Origin: Actinomycetota bacterium
Lineage (GTDB): Bacteria; Actinomycetota; Acidimicrobiia; Acidimicrobiales; AC-14
Direction of reading: 5' to 3'
DNA length: 20,705 nucleotides
Assembly: GCA_020200615.1 (NCBI GenBank)
Contig: JAIVIH010000012.1
Location: forward strand, 1 to 20,705
The notes under the pieces are model-generated. The model ran no database searches. It saw only the letters and a program-made list of their open reading frames with translations, and had not been told where the DNA came from. The stretch's first letter is position 1; every line of letters starts with the position of its first letter. This document shows, piece by piece, positions 2,621 through 20,518 of this stretch. A program made the position numbers and the translations under genes.

Positions 2621-4234
2621 ATGAGCGAGAACTCCAGCGACGGGTGGTCGGACCCCGGCGCCCCTACGTGGTCGAAGGCCGAGCCGGGCCAGCCGAGCCG
2701 GCTGATCATCTTCGACACGACCCTGCGGGACGGCGAACAGTCACCGGGCATCTCCCTCGACGCGGCGGAGAAGCTGGAGATCGCGGAGCAGCTCGCCAGG
2801 GTCGGGGTCGACGTCATCGAGGCCGGGTTCCCAGTGGCCAGTGAGGGTGACTTCGAAGCCGTCCAGGGCATCGCCCGCAAGGTGGAGGGCCCCGTCATCG
2901 CCGGTCTGTCGCGCACCCACATGACCGATGTGGACCGCTGCTGGGACGCCCTGCGCGATGCGGCGCGGGCGCGGATCCACGTCTTCATCTCGACCAGCCC
3001 GAATCACATGGAGCACATGCTGAAGATGAGCCCGGCCCAGGTCGTCGAGGCCACCCGCACGGGCGTGGCCCGGGCTCGCGAGCACACAGACGACGTGGAG
3101 TTCAGTCCTCAGGACGCGACCCGCACCCCGCTGGACTTCATGCTCGAGGTCCTGCGGGCTGCGGTAGACGCCGGGGCGACCACGCTGAACATCCCCGACA
3201 CCGTCGGCTACGGCATTCCGTGGGACTTCGGCGCCCTCATCCAGTACATCCGCCGGGAGGTCCCGGGGAACTACGTGACGTCGACCCACTGCCACAACGA
3301 CCTGGGACTTGCGGTGGCGAACTCCCTGGCGGGGGTGCGGGCCGGCGCCCGTCAGGTGGAGGTGTGCGTGAACGGCATCGGGGAGCGGGCCGGCAATGCC
3401 GCGCTGGAGGAAGTGGTCATGGCCATCAAGATCCGCCCCGACCAGTTCCCGGGCATCGAGGTCGGCGTGAACACGGAGGAGCTGGCCCGTACCAGCCGGA
3501 TGGTCAGTCGCCTGACGGGCTACCCGATCCAGTACAACAAGGCGGTCGTGGGGAGGAACGCCTTCGCCCACGAGTCGGGCATCCACCAGCACGGCGTCCT
3601 GGCCGAGCGCACGACCTACGAGATCATCGACGCCGGTGCCGTCGGTCAGGTGGGCAGCCAGATCGTGCTCGGCAAGCACTCCGGCCGTCACGCCTTCAAG
3701 GACACCCTCACCAAGATGGGCATGTCGGTCCCGGACGACACCCTGAACGCCGCCTTTGCCCGGTTCAAGGAGCTCGCCGATCGCAAGGTGCAGATCACCG
3801 ACGCCGATCTGGAGGCGATCGTCGCCGAGGAGATGGGTACCACCGTCGGACAGGCCTACACCCTGGAGGAGCTGGAGGTCAGCGGGGGCACGGTCGGGAC
3901 GCCCTGCGCCCGGGTCGTGATCTCCCAGGACGGGAGCGTTCTGGAGGCCTCGTCCGAGGGCGACGGGATGATCGACGCGGCATGCAAGGCCATCCGCGCC
4001 GCGACCGGCATCGACGGTCGCCTCACCGACTTCAACGTCTCGTCGGTGACGGGTGGTGTCGACGCTCTCGGCGACGTGATCATCCAGCTCGAGGCCGAAG
4101 GGGTGAAGGTCTCAGGACGCGGGGTCTCCACTGACGTGGTCGAAGCGTCGGCCCGGGCCTACCTCAACGCTGTCAACAAGGTGCGGCGGATCCGGGGCCG
4201 CGCCGAAGTCCGTCAGGCGGTCGTCGGGCCCTAG
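2621..4234 (+). CDS. leuA: 2-isopropylmalate synthase
   Basis: This enzyme condenses acetyl-CoA with 2-oxoisovalerate to give 2-isopropylmalate, the committed step of leucine synthesis. The 537-residue product starts at ATG 2621, 4 nt after GGAGGG. It has the HMGL-like TIM barrel with DTTLRDGEQSPG at 32-43, the divalent-metal histidines in HCHND at 223-227 and NGIGERAGN at 251-259. A C-terminal leucine-sensing regulatory domain runs from about 430 (GTPCARVVISQDG to AYLNAVNKVRR). The FSPQD segment at 161-165 has Gln where most relatives have Glu. The complete regulatory domain and the leucine-coding leader point to leucine synthesis rather than the citramalate or homocitrate branches; cimA is a separate gene at 12742. 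Its TAG stop overlaps the stop of the convergent ATPase gene in the palindrome CTAG. Confidence 0.97.
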   Translation: MSENSSDGWSDPGAPTWSKAEPGQPSRLIIFDTTLRDGEQSPGISLDAAEKLEIAEQLARVGVDVIEAGFPVASEGDFEAVQGIARKVEGPVIAGLSRTHMTDVDRCWDALRDAARARIHVFISTSPNHMEHMLKMSPAQVVEATRTGVARAREHTDDVEFSPQDATRTPLDFMLEVLRAAVDAGATTLNIPDTVGYGIPWDFGALIQYIRREVPGNYVTSTHCHNDLGLAVANSLAGVRAGARQVEVCVNGIGERAGNAALEEVVMAIKIRPDQFPGIEVGVNTEELARTSRMVSRLTGYPIQYNKAVVGRNAFAHESGIHQHGVLAERTTYEIIDAGAVGQVGSQIVLGKHSGRHAFKDTLTKMGMSVPDDTLNAAFARFKELADRKVQITDADLEAIVAEEMGTTVGQAYTLEELEVSGGTVGTPCARVVISQDGSVLEASSEGDGMIDAACKAIRAATGIDGRLTDFNVSSVTGGVDALGDVIIQLEAEGVKVSGRGVSTDVVEASARAYLNAVNKVRRIRGRAEVRQAVVGP

Positions 4235-5019
4235 CCCCCGGCCGGGACGGCGAGCAGGAACCTGTTTTCCAGGGTCTCGGCCAGTCGCGCGATCTCGGCG
4301 ACGAGGGGGGCCTCGGGGGACACATCGAGGATGCACGCCGACCGCATGTCGGCCCGGCGAACAGATCCGTCCTCGGGGATGGCGATCAGCAGCTCGCCGG
4401 CGTGAGCGCGGGCAAACGCTTCCAGCTGCTCGGCGTCACCAGGCCGGCGGATGCGATTGCCGACGTAGGCGACCTGCTGGATGCCGAGCTCAAGGGCCAG
4501 CTTGTGGGCCCGGTCGGCGGTCATCAAGACCTTGGCCGTCGGCTCGATCACCAGGAGCAGGATGTCGAGGTGCTCCAGCGTCCCGATGGAGAGATGCTCG
4601 AGGCCGGCTTCCATGTCAGCCACCACGACGGTGCCCGGGATCTCGGCTTCGATCTGGTCGAGGAAGTCACGGACCGTGACATGGGAGCTCCACGTTCAGC
4701 CCGAGCCCGCCCTCTCGGCCCGGGCTGCGAGCATGAGCGTGACGCCGTCGGGCCCTTCGTGGCCATACTCCGCCAGCAGAGTGGTGGGGGAGAGGTTCTT
4801 CGGAAGGAAGCGGACGGGCCCGGACTGGTCCAGGAACGGCCGAAGGCGGCCCGCTGCTTCTTCACCCAATCCGGTATTGGCGGCCAGGTTCGGGTCTGAA
4901 TCACAGTCGATGGCGATGACACGGTGCCCACGGCGGGCGAGGGTGCGGGCCAGCACGGCCGAGATGGTGGTCTTGCCCACGCCGCCCTTACCCGAGATCG
5001 ACACCCGCACGGGCGCCAT
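4231..5019 (-). CDS. CooC/MinD-like P-loop ATPase interrupted by an in-frame TGA at the family CxC site
   Basis: The family is the SIMIBI ATPase group that includes CooC (nickel insertion into CO dehydrogenase). The frame starts at ATG 5019 with GKGGVGKTT at residues 10-18 and a deviant Walker motif IAIDCDSDPN near 36-44. It runs well until codon 108, which is TGA (4698-4696). The same frame then continues for 154 codons with clear homology: SHVTVRDFLDQIE, then TVVVADMEAGLEHLSIGT (the conserved D-MEAG-EHL segment), a LLLVIEPT strand and an AYVGNRIR segment. Relatives usually have a Cys-x-Cys at exactly this point (G-x-G-C-x-C-x-SH); here the codons are TGA-ACG-TGG, so both cysteines are absent. 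Options are a natural pseudogene, two sequence errors, or recoding of TGA. It is the last gene of an operon after 5840-5058, with a 38-nt gap. Confidence 0.8.
4666..4698 (-). other. In-frame TGA with a downstream SECIS-like hairpin
   Basis: On the minus strand the TGA at 4698-4696 is followed by 15 nt and then GTCACGGTCCGTGAC (4680-4666), a perfect 7-bp inverted repeat best drawn as a GTCAC/GTGAC stem with a GGTCC loop. The loop starts 20 nt after the TGA. Bacterial SECIS elements have a small hairpin with a G-led loop roughly 16-37 nt after UGA, and E. coli fdhF also presents GGUC. GGA (from 4691) and TCC further down could add a lower stem. The sequence also encodes the family's conserved V-T-V-R-D, so the hairpin may be incidental. 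Confidence 0.35.
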
Positions 5020-10903: not shown

Positions 10904-10936
10904 CGCACGCGCTGGCACCAGCTCGCGTGTGTGCGC
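10903..10936 (+). promoter_or_regulatory. Attenuator hairpin 1 of the leuB leader
   Basis: The arms GCGCACGCG and CGCGTGTGTGCGC, with inner CTGG/CCAG, form a long GC-rich hairpin with a small bulge. Its 5' arm begins at the last base of the leader stop codon. A ribosome stalled on the Ile-Val-Ile codons would cover that arm and free the 3' arm. CGCC (10934-10937) could then pair with GGCG (10955-10958) inside the terminator stem, although that alternative is only 4 bp. Confidence 0.6.
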
Positions 10937-10939
10937 CTG

Positions 10940-10970
10940 ACCGTCCACTTTGTGGGCGGTTTCGTTTTTT
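10940..10970 (+). terminator. Intrinsic terminator in the leuB leader (attenuator)
   Basis: ACCGTCCAC pairs with GTGGGCGGT (one G-T pair) across a 3-nt TTT loop, followed by TTCGTTTTTT. It lies 20 nt before the leuB start and downstream of only the leader ORF on this strand. It could not serve greA, which runs the other way. Confidence 0.85.
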
Positions 10971-10990
10971 CCGGCGAGGATGAGGAGCGA

Positions 10991-11783
10991 GTGGGATACA
11001 GGATCGGGATCATCGGTGGTGACGGCATCGGGCCTGAGGTCTTGGCCGAGGCCCTGAAGGTCGTGCGCGCCGCTGGTGTCGACCTCGACACCGTCGACTA
11101 CGAGCTGGGCGGCAGCCGCTACCTGCGCACCGGTGAAGTTCTGCCCGACGCCGTGCTCGACGAGCTCCGAGGCGTGGATGCCATCCTGCTGGGAGCCGTC
11201 GGCACTCCAGAGGTGCCGCCGGGCGTGCTCGAGCGCGGCCTCCTCCTGCGCCTCCGGTTCGAGCTCGACCTATACGTCAACCTCCGGCCCTTCGTCGGGC
11301 GGGGGCTCGACTTCGCCGTGGTGCGTGAGAACACTGAGGGCGTCTACGCGGGGGAGGGCGGGTTCCTGCGGAAGGGAACTTCTCAGGAGATCGCGACCCA
11401 AGGCTCGGTCAACACCCGTATGGGGGTGGAGCGCTGCGTGCGCTTCGCCTTCGAGCTCGCTCGAGCTCGACCGGGGCGGCACCTGACGCTGGTTCACAAG
11501 ACGAACGTGCTCACCTTCTCCGGAGACCTGTGGCAGCGGACGTTCACGGAAGTCGGGACTGAGTATCCGGAGGTCGGAACCGACTACAACCACATCGATG
11601 CCGCCTGCATCCACCTGGTGGAGTCCCCGGAGCGCTATGACGCCATAGTGACCGACAATCTTGATGCTCGAGTTCCTCGGTGAGGCCGACGCCGCCGAAC
11701 GGATCTTCCGGGCTTGCGCGGAATCGGCCCCCGAGGGCGCGTCCACGGACGAGATCGGCGACTCGGTAGCCGGACGGGTTTGA
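10991..11783 (+). pseudogene. leuB: 3-isopropylmalate dehydrogenase with an internal deletion and frameshift
   Basis: The start is GTG 10991 behind GAGGAG ([16 protein letters not shown]). The N-terminal 220 or so residues are intact: [41 protein letters not shown] and [11 protein letters not shown]. After YDAIVTDNL (about 11660) the frame goes to an unrelated DARVPR and stops at 11683. From ATG 11664 another frame gives [20 protein letters not shown] to TGA 11783, which is the normal LeuB C-terminus. The block between them is absent, roughly 60-75 residues: FGDILTD with the metal-binding aspartates and the NAD-binding loop around EPVHGSAPD. The encoded protein could not work. This matters because the rest of the leucine pathway is intact: either a second leuB exists or the gap is an assembly error. 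Confidence 0.88.
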
Positions 11784-17224: not shown

Positions 17225-18631
17225 GTGAGCGCCCCCCGCGTCCGCTTCGCTCCGTCGCCCACCGGCTACCTCCATGTCGGCGGAGCGCGGACCGCCCTGT
17301 TCAACTGGCTGTTCGCGCGGGGGAGCGGAGGAACGTTCATCCTCAGGATCGAGGACACCGATCCCGAACGGTCCCGCGACGAGCTCGTCCAGGGGATCCA
17401 GCGTTCTTTGCACTGGCTGCGTCTCGACTGGGACGAGGGGCCCATCCGCCAGTCGCAGCGCCTGGACCTGTACCACGGCGCGGCCCAGACCCTTCGCCAG
17501 GCGGGCGTCGCCTATTACTGCGATTGCACCGCTGACGACGTCAAGGCTCGAGCCCAGGCGCTGCCGGCGTCAGGCTACGACGGCCATTGCCGGGAGCGGG
17601 ATCTCACTGCGGGGCCGGGACGCGCCCTGCGGTTCCGCACGCCCGACGACGGGGAGACGGTGATCCCCGACCTCATCCGGGGGGAGGTGCGCTTCGCCCA
17701 CGACACCTTGGAGGACTTCGTCATCGTCCGGAGCGACGGATCGCCCGGGTTCTACCTGCCTAATGCGGTGGACGACCTCGATCTCGGGATCACCCACGTC
17801 ATCCGCGGGGAGGACCTCCTGTCGTCCACTCCTCGTGTCCTCCTCATCCGCCGGGCGCTGGGGTCGACGGACGAGCCCGTCTTCGCCCATATGCCGATGA
17901 TCGTGGACGAGCAGCGCCGGCGGCTGTCCAAGCGGCGGCACGCGGTGGCGGTGGAGGAGTACCGGGCCATCGGCTACCTCCCCGAAGCCCTCCGCAACTA
18001 CCTGGCTCTGTTGGGGTGGTCCCCCCCCGCCGGGCAGGAGATCATCCCCATCGACGAGATGATCCGCGAGTTCCGTCCCGAGGCCGTCAACCGCTCTCCC
18101 GCCTTCTTCGACCTCCAGAAGCTCGGCCACATCAACGCCGAGTACATCCGCGCCCTGCCCGTCGCCACCTTCGTCCGGGAATCCCTTCCGTGGGTCGAGC
18201 TCGACAGCCCCTGGCCGCCCGAGTGCTTCGATCTGGCCACCTTCGAGGCCATGGCCCCGTTCGTGCAGGAACGGGTCCGGAATCTGGCCGAAGTTCCCCA
18301 CGTCGTCGACTTCCTCTTTCTCGACGAGCCGGCGATCGACGAGCCGGCGTGGGCCAAGGCGACCCGCGACCCCGCCGCCGTCGCGGTCCTGGAGGACGCG
18401 ACCATCGAGTACGCCACGTGCCCTTGGGCGACCGAGGCCCTTCACGCCGTGACCCTCGCTATCGGCGAGCGCCAGGGCCTGAAGCTGAGCAAGGCCCAGG
18501 CGCCGATCCGGGTGGCAGTGACGGGCAGGGCGGTGGGGCCGCCGCTGTTCGAGTCGCTGCACGTGCTCGGACGGGAGAAGGTGCTGGCCCGGCTACGCGC
18601 AGCCCGGGATCGCCTTCCGTCGACTTCATGA
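17225..18631 (+). CDS. gltX: Glutamyl-tRNA synthetase
   Basis: GltX is a class I synthetase that attaches glutamate to tRNA-Glu. It may also mischarge tRNA-Gln where an amidotransferase route exists; a glutaminyl-tRNA synthetase is not visible here. The 468-residue product starts at GTG 17225, with TTG 17222 as an alternative. Signatures are RFAPSPTGYLHVGGARTAL (HIGH motif), Cys99, Cys101 and Cys122 around YYCDC and YDGHC, which fit the zinc-binding loop, FYLPNAVDDLDLGITHVIRG, and LSKRR at 234-238 (KMSKS motif). The C-terminal anticodon-binding part ends LSKAQAPIRVAVTGRAVGPP followed by an LGREKVLARL helix. The stop overlaps the ATG of the next gene (ATGA). Confidence 0.97.
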   Translation: MSAPRVRFAPSPTGYLHVGGARTALFNWLFARGSGGTFILRIEDTDPERSRDELVQGIQRSLHWLRLDWDEGPIRQSQRLDLYHGAAQTLRQAGVAYYCDCTADDVKARAQALPASGYDGHCRERDLTAGPGRALRFRTPDDGETVIPDLIRGEVRFAHDTLEDFVIVRSDGSPGFYLPNAVDDLDLGITHVIRGEDLLSSTPRVLLIRRALGSTDEPVFAHMPMIVDEQRRRLSKRRHAVAVEEYRAIGYLPEALRNYLALLGWSPPAGQEIIPIDEMIREFRPEAVNRSPAFFDLQKLGHINAEYIRALPVATFVRESLPWVELDSPWPPECFDLATFEAMAPFVQERVRNLAEVPHVVDFLFLDEPAIDEPAWAKATRDPAAVAVLEDATIEYATCPWATEALHAVTLAIGERQGLKLSKAQAPIRVAVTGRAVGPPLFESLHVLGREKVLARLRAARDRLPSTS

Positions 18632-19027
18632 TGCGCCTGATCAAGCTCGCCGTCCTCCTGGGAACCGTCCTCGTCGCCTATGTGGCCTTCACCTTCGCCC
18701 AGGTGTGGCTTGCGGCCCGGCGGGACGACGCCCGGACGGCCGAGGCGATCGTCGTCCTGGGCGCGGCGCAGTTCAACGGTCCTCAAGGAGCGATCCATCA
18801 GACGGGTGCTGCTCGTTTCCGACCCGTTCCACTCGTTCCGCATCGACGCCATCGCCGACGAGCTCGGATTGGAGGGCCATCCGTCGCCCACCAGAGGCAG
18901 TCCAATCACGGGGATGAGCGCCACCCGTCACCTACTCCGGGAGACGGCGGCAGTCGCCGTCGGGCGCGTCATCGGCTACCGCCGCGAGGCCGGCATCCAC
19001 AAGGTGGTGCAGACGGAACTGGGTTGA
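18628..19027 (+). pseudogene. YdcF/DUF218-like membrane protein with an internal deletion
   Basis: ATG 18628 overlaps the gltX stop. An N-terminal membrane helix (IKLAVLLGTVLVAYVAFTFA) is followed by AEAIVVLGAAQFNG, the first conserved strand of the DUF218 (YdcF) fold. At about 18781 the frame changes, and the second frame reads LKERSIRRVLLVSDPFHSFR, then HPSPTRGSPITG and the C-terminal LLRETAAVAVGRVIGYRR to TGA 19027. The middle of the domain is missing, roughly 75-85 residues by comparison with complete members, including the GG-xxxxE-A region. The protein cannot be made as one chain. Both ends are well conserved, so the lesion is recent or artificial. The stop is 3 nt from the nuoF-like stop. 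Confidence 0.8.
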
Positions 19028-19030
19028 CGC

Positions 19031-20518
19031 TCAGCCCTCCTCCAGGGACCCGGGCGACCGGTGCTCCCCGAACCGGTCTGCCGGTGACTGGCCGGAGTAC
19101 TCCTCGTTGTAGGTCCAGTCCGGCTGCTTGTCGCGGAACCGCTCCTCGACCACGGCTCCGGCGTCGCTGATGTTGACCAGCTCGGCCACCAGCACGGGCT
19201 CGACGGCCGGGGAATCGCCGTTCAGGTGAGCCCGGATACTCTCCGGAAATCGCTCCAGGAGGCTCCCGAGCACGGCTTGGTGCTGGAGCGCCAGGTAGCA
19301 GCGGGCCTCGGTGCTCACCGTCTGCACCCGATCGGCGATGGCCTCGAGGTCGTGCTCCTCGACTTCGGAGCGGCAGACCTTGGCCATCAGGTCGGAGAGA
19401 GCCAGTCCATCCTGCTTGCATGGCGTGCACTGACCGCACGACTCCACGGCCAGGAAGCGGGAGACGCCCGCCCCCACGGCGGCGATGTCCACGGTGTCGT
19501 CGAAGACCATGAAGCCGGCGGACCCCAGGCCGCTTCCGGCGTCCCTCATGGCTTCGTAGGTCAGGGGCGTGTCCAGCTGATCGGGGCCGATGAATCCCGT
19601 GGCCACGCCGGGAAGGACGGCCTGGATCCGCTGGCCGGGAAGGGCTCCGCCCCCGACGACCTCGATGACTTCGCGCAGAGGCGTACCCATCGGCACCTCG
19701 CCCACGCCTGGATGCCGCACCGAGCCCGTCACCGTGCAGACGACGGTGCCCGGCGACTCCTCGGTCCCCTCGGTCCGGAACCAGGCGGCCCCCCGGGAGA
19801 TGATGCGGGGTACGTTGGCCAGGGTCTCCACGTTGTCCACGAGGGTCGGGGGAGCGGATCCGTCCTCCTCGGTGCCGGCCATCTCGATGGGCCCGGCGAG
19901 GCCGCTTCCGCTGCTCGCCTGGGTCTCGGTCTGCACCACTTCCAGCAGTCCACGGCGGTACGGCGGAGCGATTCGCGGGAACGGGTAACGACCGCCGAGC
20001 ACCTCCAGAAGCGCCGTCTCCTCGCCGTAGAGGTACTCGCCGGGGCCCTCGAAGATGGTGATCTCGAGTTCGTCGGCGTTGGCCCACCCTGCCTCGTAGG
20101 CCTCCTTGATCGCCCGCCGGATGCGATCCATCTCGGTCACGAACGTCTTCTTCATCCCGAAGACCACGTTGCGGGCGCCGATGGCGTGGGCGGCGATGAG
20201 GGCCCCTTCCAGCACGTGGTAGGGGTTGTTGCGCAGGATGGTGCGGTCCTTGAAGGTCCCCGGCTCACCTTCGGCGGCATTGACCACCACTGTCGCCTGC
20301 ACGGCGTCGGACCGGTGCTCGCTCACCGTCCGCCATTTCGTCCCGGTGGGGAACCCCGCACCCCCCCGGCCCCTGAGGCCCGATGCCTCCAGCTCGGCGA
20401 TGACTACTTCGGGCTTGACCTTGCGGGCCGCTTCGAGGCCCTGGCCGCCACGCCGGGTGAGGTACTCGGCGAGGTCACGGATGGGGTCGGGAAAGAGGAC
20501 TCGGTGGACGGTGGTCAT
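19031..20518 (-). CDS. NuoF-like NADH-binding flavoprotein with an insertion and a C-terminal extension
   Basis: This is a member of the 51-kDa subunit family: FMN and NADH binding plus one [4Fe-4S] cluster, found in complex I, NAD-linked formate dehydrogenases and hydrogenases. The 495-residue product starts at ATG 20518. Signatures are GRGGAGFPTGTKW at 50-62, VVNAAEGEPGTFKDRTIL at 78-95, GEETALLEVLGG at 165-176 and the cluster cysteines 361, 364 and 367 (SCGQCTPCKQDG) plus Cys407. Two features are unusual. About 30 extra residues at 192-224 (VVQTETQASSGSGLAGPIEM and following) lie where NuoF has a short loop, and an extension of about 55 residues follows position 440. No nuoE, nuoG or other complex I gene is adjacent, so a standalone soluble dehydrogenase partner is likelier than complex I. 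The specific complex is unknown. Confidence 0.9.
   Translation of the reverse strand: MTTVHRVLFPDPIRDLAEYLTRRGGQGLEAARKVKPEVVIAELEASGLRGRGGAGFPTGTKWRTVSEHRSDAVQATVVVNAAEGEPGTFKDRTILRNNPYHVLEGALIAAHAIGARNVVFGMKKTFVTEMDRIRRAIKEAYEAGWANADELEITIFEGPGEYLYGEETALLEVLGGRYPFPRIAPPYRRGLLEVVQTETQASSGSGLAGPIEMAGTEEDGSAPPTLVDNVETLANVPRIISRGAAWFRTEGTEESPGTVVCTVTGSVRHPGVGEVPMGTPLREVIEVVGGGALPGQRIQAVLPGVATGFIGPDQLDTPLTYEAMRDAGSGLGSAGFMVFDDTVDIAAVGAGVSRFLAVESCGQCTPCKQDGLALSDLMAKVCRSEVEEHDLEAIADRVQTVSTEARCYLALQHQAVLGSLLERFPESIRAHLNGDSPAVEPVLVAELVNISDAGAVVEERFRDKQPDWTYNEEYSGQSPADRFGEHRSPGSLEEG

Follow-up and report, generated by a model that had tools for sequence, protein, structure and literature searches.

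The ATPase gene and its in-frame UGA

The 20,705-nt stretch of contig JAIVIH010000012.1 analyzed here (further referred to as the window) carries on its minus strand the gene of a CooC-like ATPase of the MinD/ParA type (SIMIBI), whose frame runs from an ATG (5019-5017) to a TAG (4233-4231). Within its 262 codons (4231-5019), the only interruption is a TGA at codon 108 (4696-4698), which agrees with the original prediction, given without a strand. After 15 nt past this TGA begins GTCACGGTCCGTGAC (4680-4666), a hairpin with the arms GUCAC and GUGAC and a 5-nt loop, GGTCC (GGUCC in RNA), occupying nt 21-25, i.e., at a distance resembling that of a bacterial selenocysteine insertion sequence (SECIS), as had been proposed. 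Across the protein family, the UGA is conserved, exchanges with cysteine codons, is followed by the hairpin, and co-occurs with the selenocysteine (Sec) machinery and with [NiFe] hydrogenase. We consider it highly likely that the window gene encodes a selenoprotein, with UGA codon 108 being decoded as Sec.

When read through, the protein belongs to the P-loop ATPases, in the CbiA/MinD/NifH class (Pfam CbiA, PF01656, 4.9e-17), and its best solved relative in a sequence search of the PDB is CooC1 (3KJE, E-value 8.3e-22), the ATPase of nickel-dependent carbon monoxide dehydrogenase (Ni-CODH) maturation. The AlphaFold2 model of the read-through protein has a mean pLDDT (per-residue confidence score) of 91.4, and in Foldseek 3KJE was third among the matches listed (E-value 1.7e-14, template modeling (TM) score 0.75), with nitrogenase Fe proteins scoring similarly. 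The protein shares with CooC the SIMIBI fold (in the predicted model) and the deviant Walker A motif GKGGVGKTT (residues 10-18, 4966-4992), which is also described for CooC in the consulted part of PMC6006190. For the window protein, 25 of 27 NCBIfam models were shown and not one reached its cut-off, and no NCBIfam model matched eight read-through family members at 1e-25. Downstream of the UGA lies the conserved motif DMEAGLEH (4594-4617), in which D, M, A, G, L, the second E, and H are invariant in 30 homologs and the first E is kept in at least 90% of them.

The region around codons 108-110 reads GSG-TGA-T-W-S-S-H-V-T-V-R-D. In the phmmer alignment to 3KJE, codon 108 falls on Cys112 of CooC1, the first cysteine of the CxC metal motif, as originally predicted, and codon 110 (TGG, 4692-4690) falls on Cys114. 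According to the consulted part of PMC6006190, these two cysteines of CooC hold zinc at the dimer interface, and nickel competes for that site. The window protein thus resembles CooC1 in its Walker A motif, fold, and metal-motif position, and differs in having UGA for the first cysteine and no second one: the CxC motif itself is absent and UxW stands in its place.

Conservation of the UGA and of the hairpin among relatives

A database search with the N-terminal half gave 263 matches, and all 120 listed (the window's own included) end in a GxG tail where the UGA stands, mostly KAGSG or RAGSG, the match next after the window's own being 88% identical. Reciprocally, among the 120 listed of the 533 matches to the full query, 88 were C-terminal halves of 144-148 aa starting with M/V-RDFI, i.e., with the residues just past the UGA site. 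Both listings comprise predicted proteins, not DNA, and the search admits only proteins of 0.55-1.75 times the query length, which keeps full-length relatives out of the first and N-terminal halves out of the second. Judged from these sequences, the same signal is apparently present in more than 100 database relatives, some of them from distant phyla, and reading of the UGA explains many half-protein database entries of this family.

Independently of the protein lists, DNA of 80 loci and 61 further ones was inspected, in which 220 places (some genes having been fetched twice) were merged into 167 CooC-like genes, after removal of those shorter than 180 aa or with the same segment. Within the aligned ranges, 35 of the 167 genes (33 distinct, window included) contain 41 in-frame stops, all of which are TGA and all of which stand at the first or second cysteine position of CxC. 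A TAG was listed once each in G029:C21 and G025:C66; it could be placed only for L094 (G029:C21), where it is the natural gene end.

Sec is predicted at the first, the second, or both metal-motif positions across the family (UxG, UxC, UxU, CxUC, and UxUC). The patterns found were UTG and UTW (the window's subclade), UTC, UNC, UMC, UAC, ULC, ULUC, and UPUC, as well as UTU and UNU in Chloroflexi, and CPUC and CAUC in Pseudonocardia and other Actinomycetota. UGA-containing members occur in records of Actinomycetota, Chloroflexota (including Thermomicrobiales), Gemmatimonadota (Gemmatimonadales), SAR324, and Verrucomicrobiota. The distribution is patchy, with family members in 3 of 148 genomes in the class of genome G001 (at 1e-20) and 6 of 247 in the class of G022 (at 1e-30), and the CxUC paralog in 2 of 62 genomes of the genus of G014 (at 1e-40). 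In L012, L019, and L119 (U-x-U) two UGA codons stand two codons apart, and a single hairpin follows the first of them at the usual distance. Runs of four neighboring CooC-like paralogs with differing metal motifs were observed at L013, L014, L020, and L023.

The original prediction assumed that the second cysteine had been replaced by the TGG codon and saw no obvious chemistry for a Sec-x-Trp pair. The tryptophan at codon 110 stands. However, the closest Cys relatives read C-x-G, not C-x-C, and U-T-G is found in the eight other UGA genes of the subclade, so Trp110 replaces a glycine and the second cysteine had already been lost. Since the subclade is otherwise Sec-x-Gly, the chemical concern is largely removed.

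The hairpin is a SECIS-like stem conserved as RNA. In a fixed register (nt 16-20 with 26-30 after the UGA), all five pairs are formed in 21 of 24 TGA genes and in 0 of 103 non-TGA homologs; the count covers tblastn matches with E-value ≤ 1e-8 and no indel from the UGA site to 11 codons on (the CxUC group is thereby excluded), and the non-TGA rows include paralogs without Cys at the site. By eye, the stems of the three exceptions (L009, L021, and L022) are apparently shifted. Relatives whose TGA lacks the hairpin and which gather further stops, named in the original prediction as evidence to the contrary, were not found in the aligned ranges. In the covariation analysis of 25 TGA genes, 94.4% of the cells were paired, compared with 18-41% in slid controls, and 19 cells were changed on both sides, against a shuffled mean of 5.8 (0 of 500 shuffles as high). 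The GU at the loop center is invariant in these 25 genes.

As the hairpin stretch also encodes protein, a null model was used in which the peptide is fixed and codons are redrawn according to the usage of each gene. Under this model 0.99 stems were expected and 22 observed in the 25 TGA genes, while for 15 comparable Cys genes the respective numbers were 0.08 and 0. The window's own stem arises in 9% of such draws, and hence taken alone it proves little. The Rfam scan of the window gave no SECIS match, and at the site it returned a weak, unrelated chance match to a miRNA. A covariance model of the hairpin ranks the window site best (57.1 bits), but it was built from a set including this site and is not counted here.

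On a tree of 157 CooC-like proteins, built quickly with IQ-TREE (those of the 167 remaining after removal of genes shorter than 200 aa or with the same central segment; one gene, L141/L130, stands twice among the 32 Sec rows), 14 changes between TGA and non-TGA were counted, at least nine of which are forced by the starred branches; the mean for shuffled data was 29.6. The set with the window is fully supported and has 10 rows, nine with UGA and one without (L115).

These data bear upon the possibility that the gene is a conserved split one, in which translation truly ends at the UGA and the C-terminal half is made as a polypeptide of its own. Gene callers do predict the halves separately, as the 120 listed N-half and 88 listed C-half clusters show. 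Nonetheless, a split gene is very unlikely, considering that the stop is never TAA or TAG, that two stops may stand two codons apart (UxU, UxUC), that TGA is repeatedly exchanged on the tree, and that the stem is absent from the same register of non-TGA homologs. Moreover, at the VRDF position of the window (GTC CGT GAC) there is no usual start codon, and the next listed start is the GTG at 4626.

Selenocysteine machinery and the decoding of UGA

Genomes of 36 relatives (G001-G030, G044, G138, G235, G315, G400, and G406), most of them metagenome-assembled genomes (MAGs), were screened for the Sec machinery, and 25 of them carry at least one UGA gene of the family (39 such genes in all). SelB exceeded the curated cut-off in 22 of the 25 genomes with UGA genes and in 5 of the 11 without (Fisher p 0.012), and SelA was found in 20 and 5, respectively. 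Among the genomes lacking SelB by this measure, G014 has a match of 236.1 bits (cut-off 242.25) directly after selA, and G235 has two part-length matches, one of them directly after selA. The presence of SelA and SelB in most of the relatives' genomes, together with their retention of TGA and hairpin, supports the earlier suggestion of a selenoprotein ATPase.

The gathering score for tRNA-Sec was passed by 24 of 30 genomes (some with neither a SelA match nor SelB over the cut-off) and by 5 of 14 control genomes, so this score is of little use here; in the same controls SelB passes in two and SelA in one. With a threshold of at least 57 bits, tRNA-Sec was found among G001-G030 in 16 of 21 genomes with UGA genes versus 3 of 9 others. 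In the 20.7-kb window, Rfam and ARAGORN scans revealed no tRNA-Sec, only a tRNA-Gln.

According to the mechanism proposed here, Sec would be inserted at codon 108 under the direction of the downstream hairpin, which may act as a bacterial SECIS bound by SelB. Alternatively, a suppressor or an altered code might let the UGA specify a different amino acid (Trp, Gly, or Cys), in line with which the metagenomic homolog P0010, known as protein only, has Trp at the Sec position (AGAGWTGTSH). UGA, however, terminates nine other gene-like frames in the window, which points to a standard code, and with the Sec machinery common in carriers and the fixed-register stem accompanying the UGA, we judge such a reading even more improbable than a split gene.

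Several results weigh against translation of the codon as Sec. One genome with a UGA gene, G138, shows no SelA, no SelB over the cut-off, and no hydrogenase match. For SelB, nine independent tree pairs gave on average 3.4 pairs in the same direction, 0 in the opposite one, and 5.6 equal (p 0.06-0.25, with G014 entered as SelB-positive though below the cut-off); the association is one-way, yet non-significant, as the pairs are too few. In the covariation analysis, two of the five measures, the number of pairs changed on both sides (four of five; shuffled 2.8, 83 of 500) and that of further pair types (7; shuffled 6.8, 332 of 500), did not rise above the shuffled values. The hairpin of the CxUC paralogs is different, and the energies of their Sec and Cys members overlap. 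Finally, the ratio of dN to dS (nonsynonymous and synonymous divergence) is 0.46-0.65 in the C-terminal half (dS being near-saturated) versus 0.24-0.30 in the N-terminal half.

In spite of this difference, dN is lower than dS on both sides of the TGA, and scattered stops, frameshifts, or relaxed constraint typical of pseudogenes were not found in the family. A pseudogene or a sequencing or assembly error at codon 108, held by the original prediction to be at least as likely, and to which the damaged look of other genes of the contig (LeuB is truncated, its C-terminal part lying in a different frame, and a DUF218 gene seems frame-changed) would lend credit, can be rejected as the most improbable explanation, because independent assemblies from several phyla keep the same TGA, never TAA or TAG, at CxC positions only, in a frame with no other stop and with both halves under constraint.

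Hairpin energy was tried as a separator within the CxUC group and rejected, with a mean of -15.5 for Sec (10 rows, two genes twice) and values from -8.7 to -14.7 for Cys (5 rows). The Cys gene L132 of this group keeps a stem resembling that of its UGA relative L092, and its genome (G028) has no SelA and no SelB over the cut-off. The stem of L132 may be a fossil SECIS.

Proposed role and relation to known systems

The [NiFe] hydrogenase large subunit (PF00374) was found in 31 of the 36 genomes (23 of 25 with UGA genes and 8 of 11 others), HypB, the nickel-insertion GTPase of these enzymes, in only 7 (4 and 3), and Ni-CODH in 4 (2 and 2). A UGA gene lies within 15 kb of a large-subunit gene in 13 of the 25 genomes, and some CooC-like gene does so in at least 24 of the 36, a lower bound, since 39 UGA places and 48 of 70 others were taken into account. 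In the large subunits themselves, no UGA was seen.

At locus L009, genes of HypF, two SIS-domain proteins, HypD, and an AIR-synthase-type protein (read as HypE from its position, not from a model) are followed by the UGA gene, a family-5 solute-binding protein gene, and two permease genes. The gene order is repeated at locus L012, where a DoxX-like gene and a Cys CooC paralog are interposed. The two consecutive SIS-domain genes between HypF and HypD occupy L009:2334-3706 and L012:841-2606. At L005, the UGA gene adjoins the gene of the hydrogenase small subunit, with a large subunit nearby, the best PDB relative of which is HofG (5AA5, 1.2e-161), which belongs to the actinobacterial-type hydrogenase of Ralstonia. 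This is the sole large subunit typed in this way. Elsewhere, a ParA/CbiA-type NTPase was counted among the neighbors of [NiFe] hydrogenases; the part of that work consulted (PMC12727194) contains nothing on UGA, Sec, or CxC, and the likeness to the window protein is at the level of the broad NTPase class.

The simplest reading, in our opinion, is that a CooC-like ATPase, with either Cys or Sec, does the work of HypB. ATP-driven dimerization would make and break a metal site from the motif residues, in which the selenolate might bind a soft metal, probably Ni2+ (nickel being suggested by the position of the residue and by the gene neighbors), and the ATPase would serve [NiFe] hydrogenase instead of the GTPase. 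We regard [NiFe] hydrogenase as the probable client of the family, and for the window's own subclade as a possible, somewhat doubtful one. Whether SelB-dependent nickel-insertion ATPases, with up to three UGA paralogs per genome and Sec at either or both ligands, have taken the place of HypB in bacteria whose [NiFe] hydrogenases are of the actinobacterial (high-affinity) type seems to us evenly balanced.

The following observations argue against the hydrogenase assignment. The window gene shares the last 4 nt of leuA and is not beside hydrogenase genes, which makes its subclade the weakest point of this assignment. The lack of HypB may partly reflect incompleteness of MAGs. HypA and HypB are listed, in the consulted part of PMC12976888, among the maturation genes of the Huc and Hhy hydrogenases of M. 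smegmatis, and CooC of Rhodospirillum rubrum was reported, as far as the consulted part of PMC6006190 goes, not to mature its CO-induced [NiFe] hydrogenase.

The protein might be a selenoprotein of another role, i.e., a redox protein, an ATPase for Fe-S clusters or another metal, or a Ni-CODH maturase, which we find less than probable, yet a serious possibility. It is favored by the NifH Fe proteins, as near as CooC1 in Foldseek, by the leucine genes near both the window gene and its relative L002 (the latter is close to aconitase-type, isopropylmalate-dehydrogenase-type, and LeuA-type genes), and by UxG, which would give only one chalcogen ligand per subunit. On the other hand, Ni-CODH is present in just 2 of the 25 genomes with UGA genes, other paralog groups adjoin [NiFe] hydrogenase or hyp genes, and Sec sits at the position of Cys112, the zinc ligand of CooC1, at the site where nickel competes. 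With respect to HypB, the nickel-insertion ATPase proposed here would share the role and not the family, as TIGR00073 was not among the NCBIfam families shown for the window protein (25 of 27).

In bacterial selenoproteins such as FdhF, the SECIS lies within the coding region. The window gene is similar to them in the UGA at a Cys position, the hairpin shortly downstream, the GU in the loop, and the presence of SelA and SelB in most carriers; it differs in being a P-loop ATPase with Sec in a presumed metal site at the dimer interface, not in a redox motif. CobW is an NTPase of the G3E GTPase family. Metal-handling proteins with Sec, namely the CobW-related selenoprotein NF041053 (another NTPase family, with the motif UxxC) and CopZ-like selenoproteins, are listed in the consulted part of the May 2026 inventory (PMC13188914).

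Among the 119 prokaryotic selenoprotein families and subfamilies in Table 1 of this inventory, as far as it was available, there is no CooC, MinD, or ParA-type ATPase, and the terms 'CooC' and 'carbon monoxide' are absent from its text. No such ATPase is mentioned in the consulted parts of three other selenoprotein papers (PMC12013277, PMC9312934, and PMC2398784), and titles and abstract openings in the literature, with most subscription papers and all bioRxiv preprints outside the coverage, gave no selenoprotein CooC-like ATPase. The CooC-like ATPases are thus very probably a new selenoprotein family, in no inventory examined.

The selenoproteins thereby gain a family that probably acts outside redox chemistry, by binding metal at the moving interface of an ATPase, and for bacteria with [NiFe] hydrogenase but without recognizable HypB a candidate route of nickel insertion emerges. 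If HypB has indeed been replaced in this way, the MinD/ParA class would have its first selenoprotein among metallochaperone NTPases, selenium would be linked to the maturation of hydrogenases in whose own large subunits no UGA is seen, and a UxU dimer could bring together up to four selenolates at a single site. As the CxUC paralogs of the culture-collection strains Pseudonocardia kunmingensis DSM 45301 and P. nigra DSM 104088 contain the UGA, selenium labelling and gene removal are feasible now.

Concerning the two damaged genes of the window, the DUF218 (YdcF-like) gene (18627-19050, plus strand; match below the Pfam cut-off) seems to continue in another frame. The LeuB frame (10931-11683, plus strand), from which an inner piece is seemingly missing, covers roughly two thirds of the Iso_dh profile before it stops, and what looks like the C-terminal part lies in a different frame.

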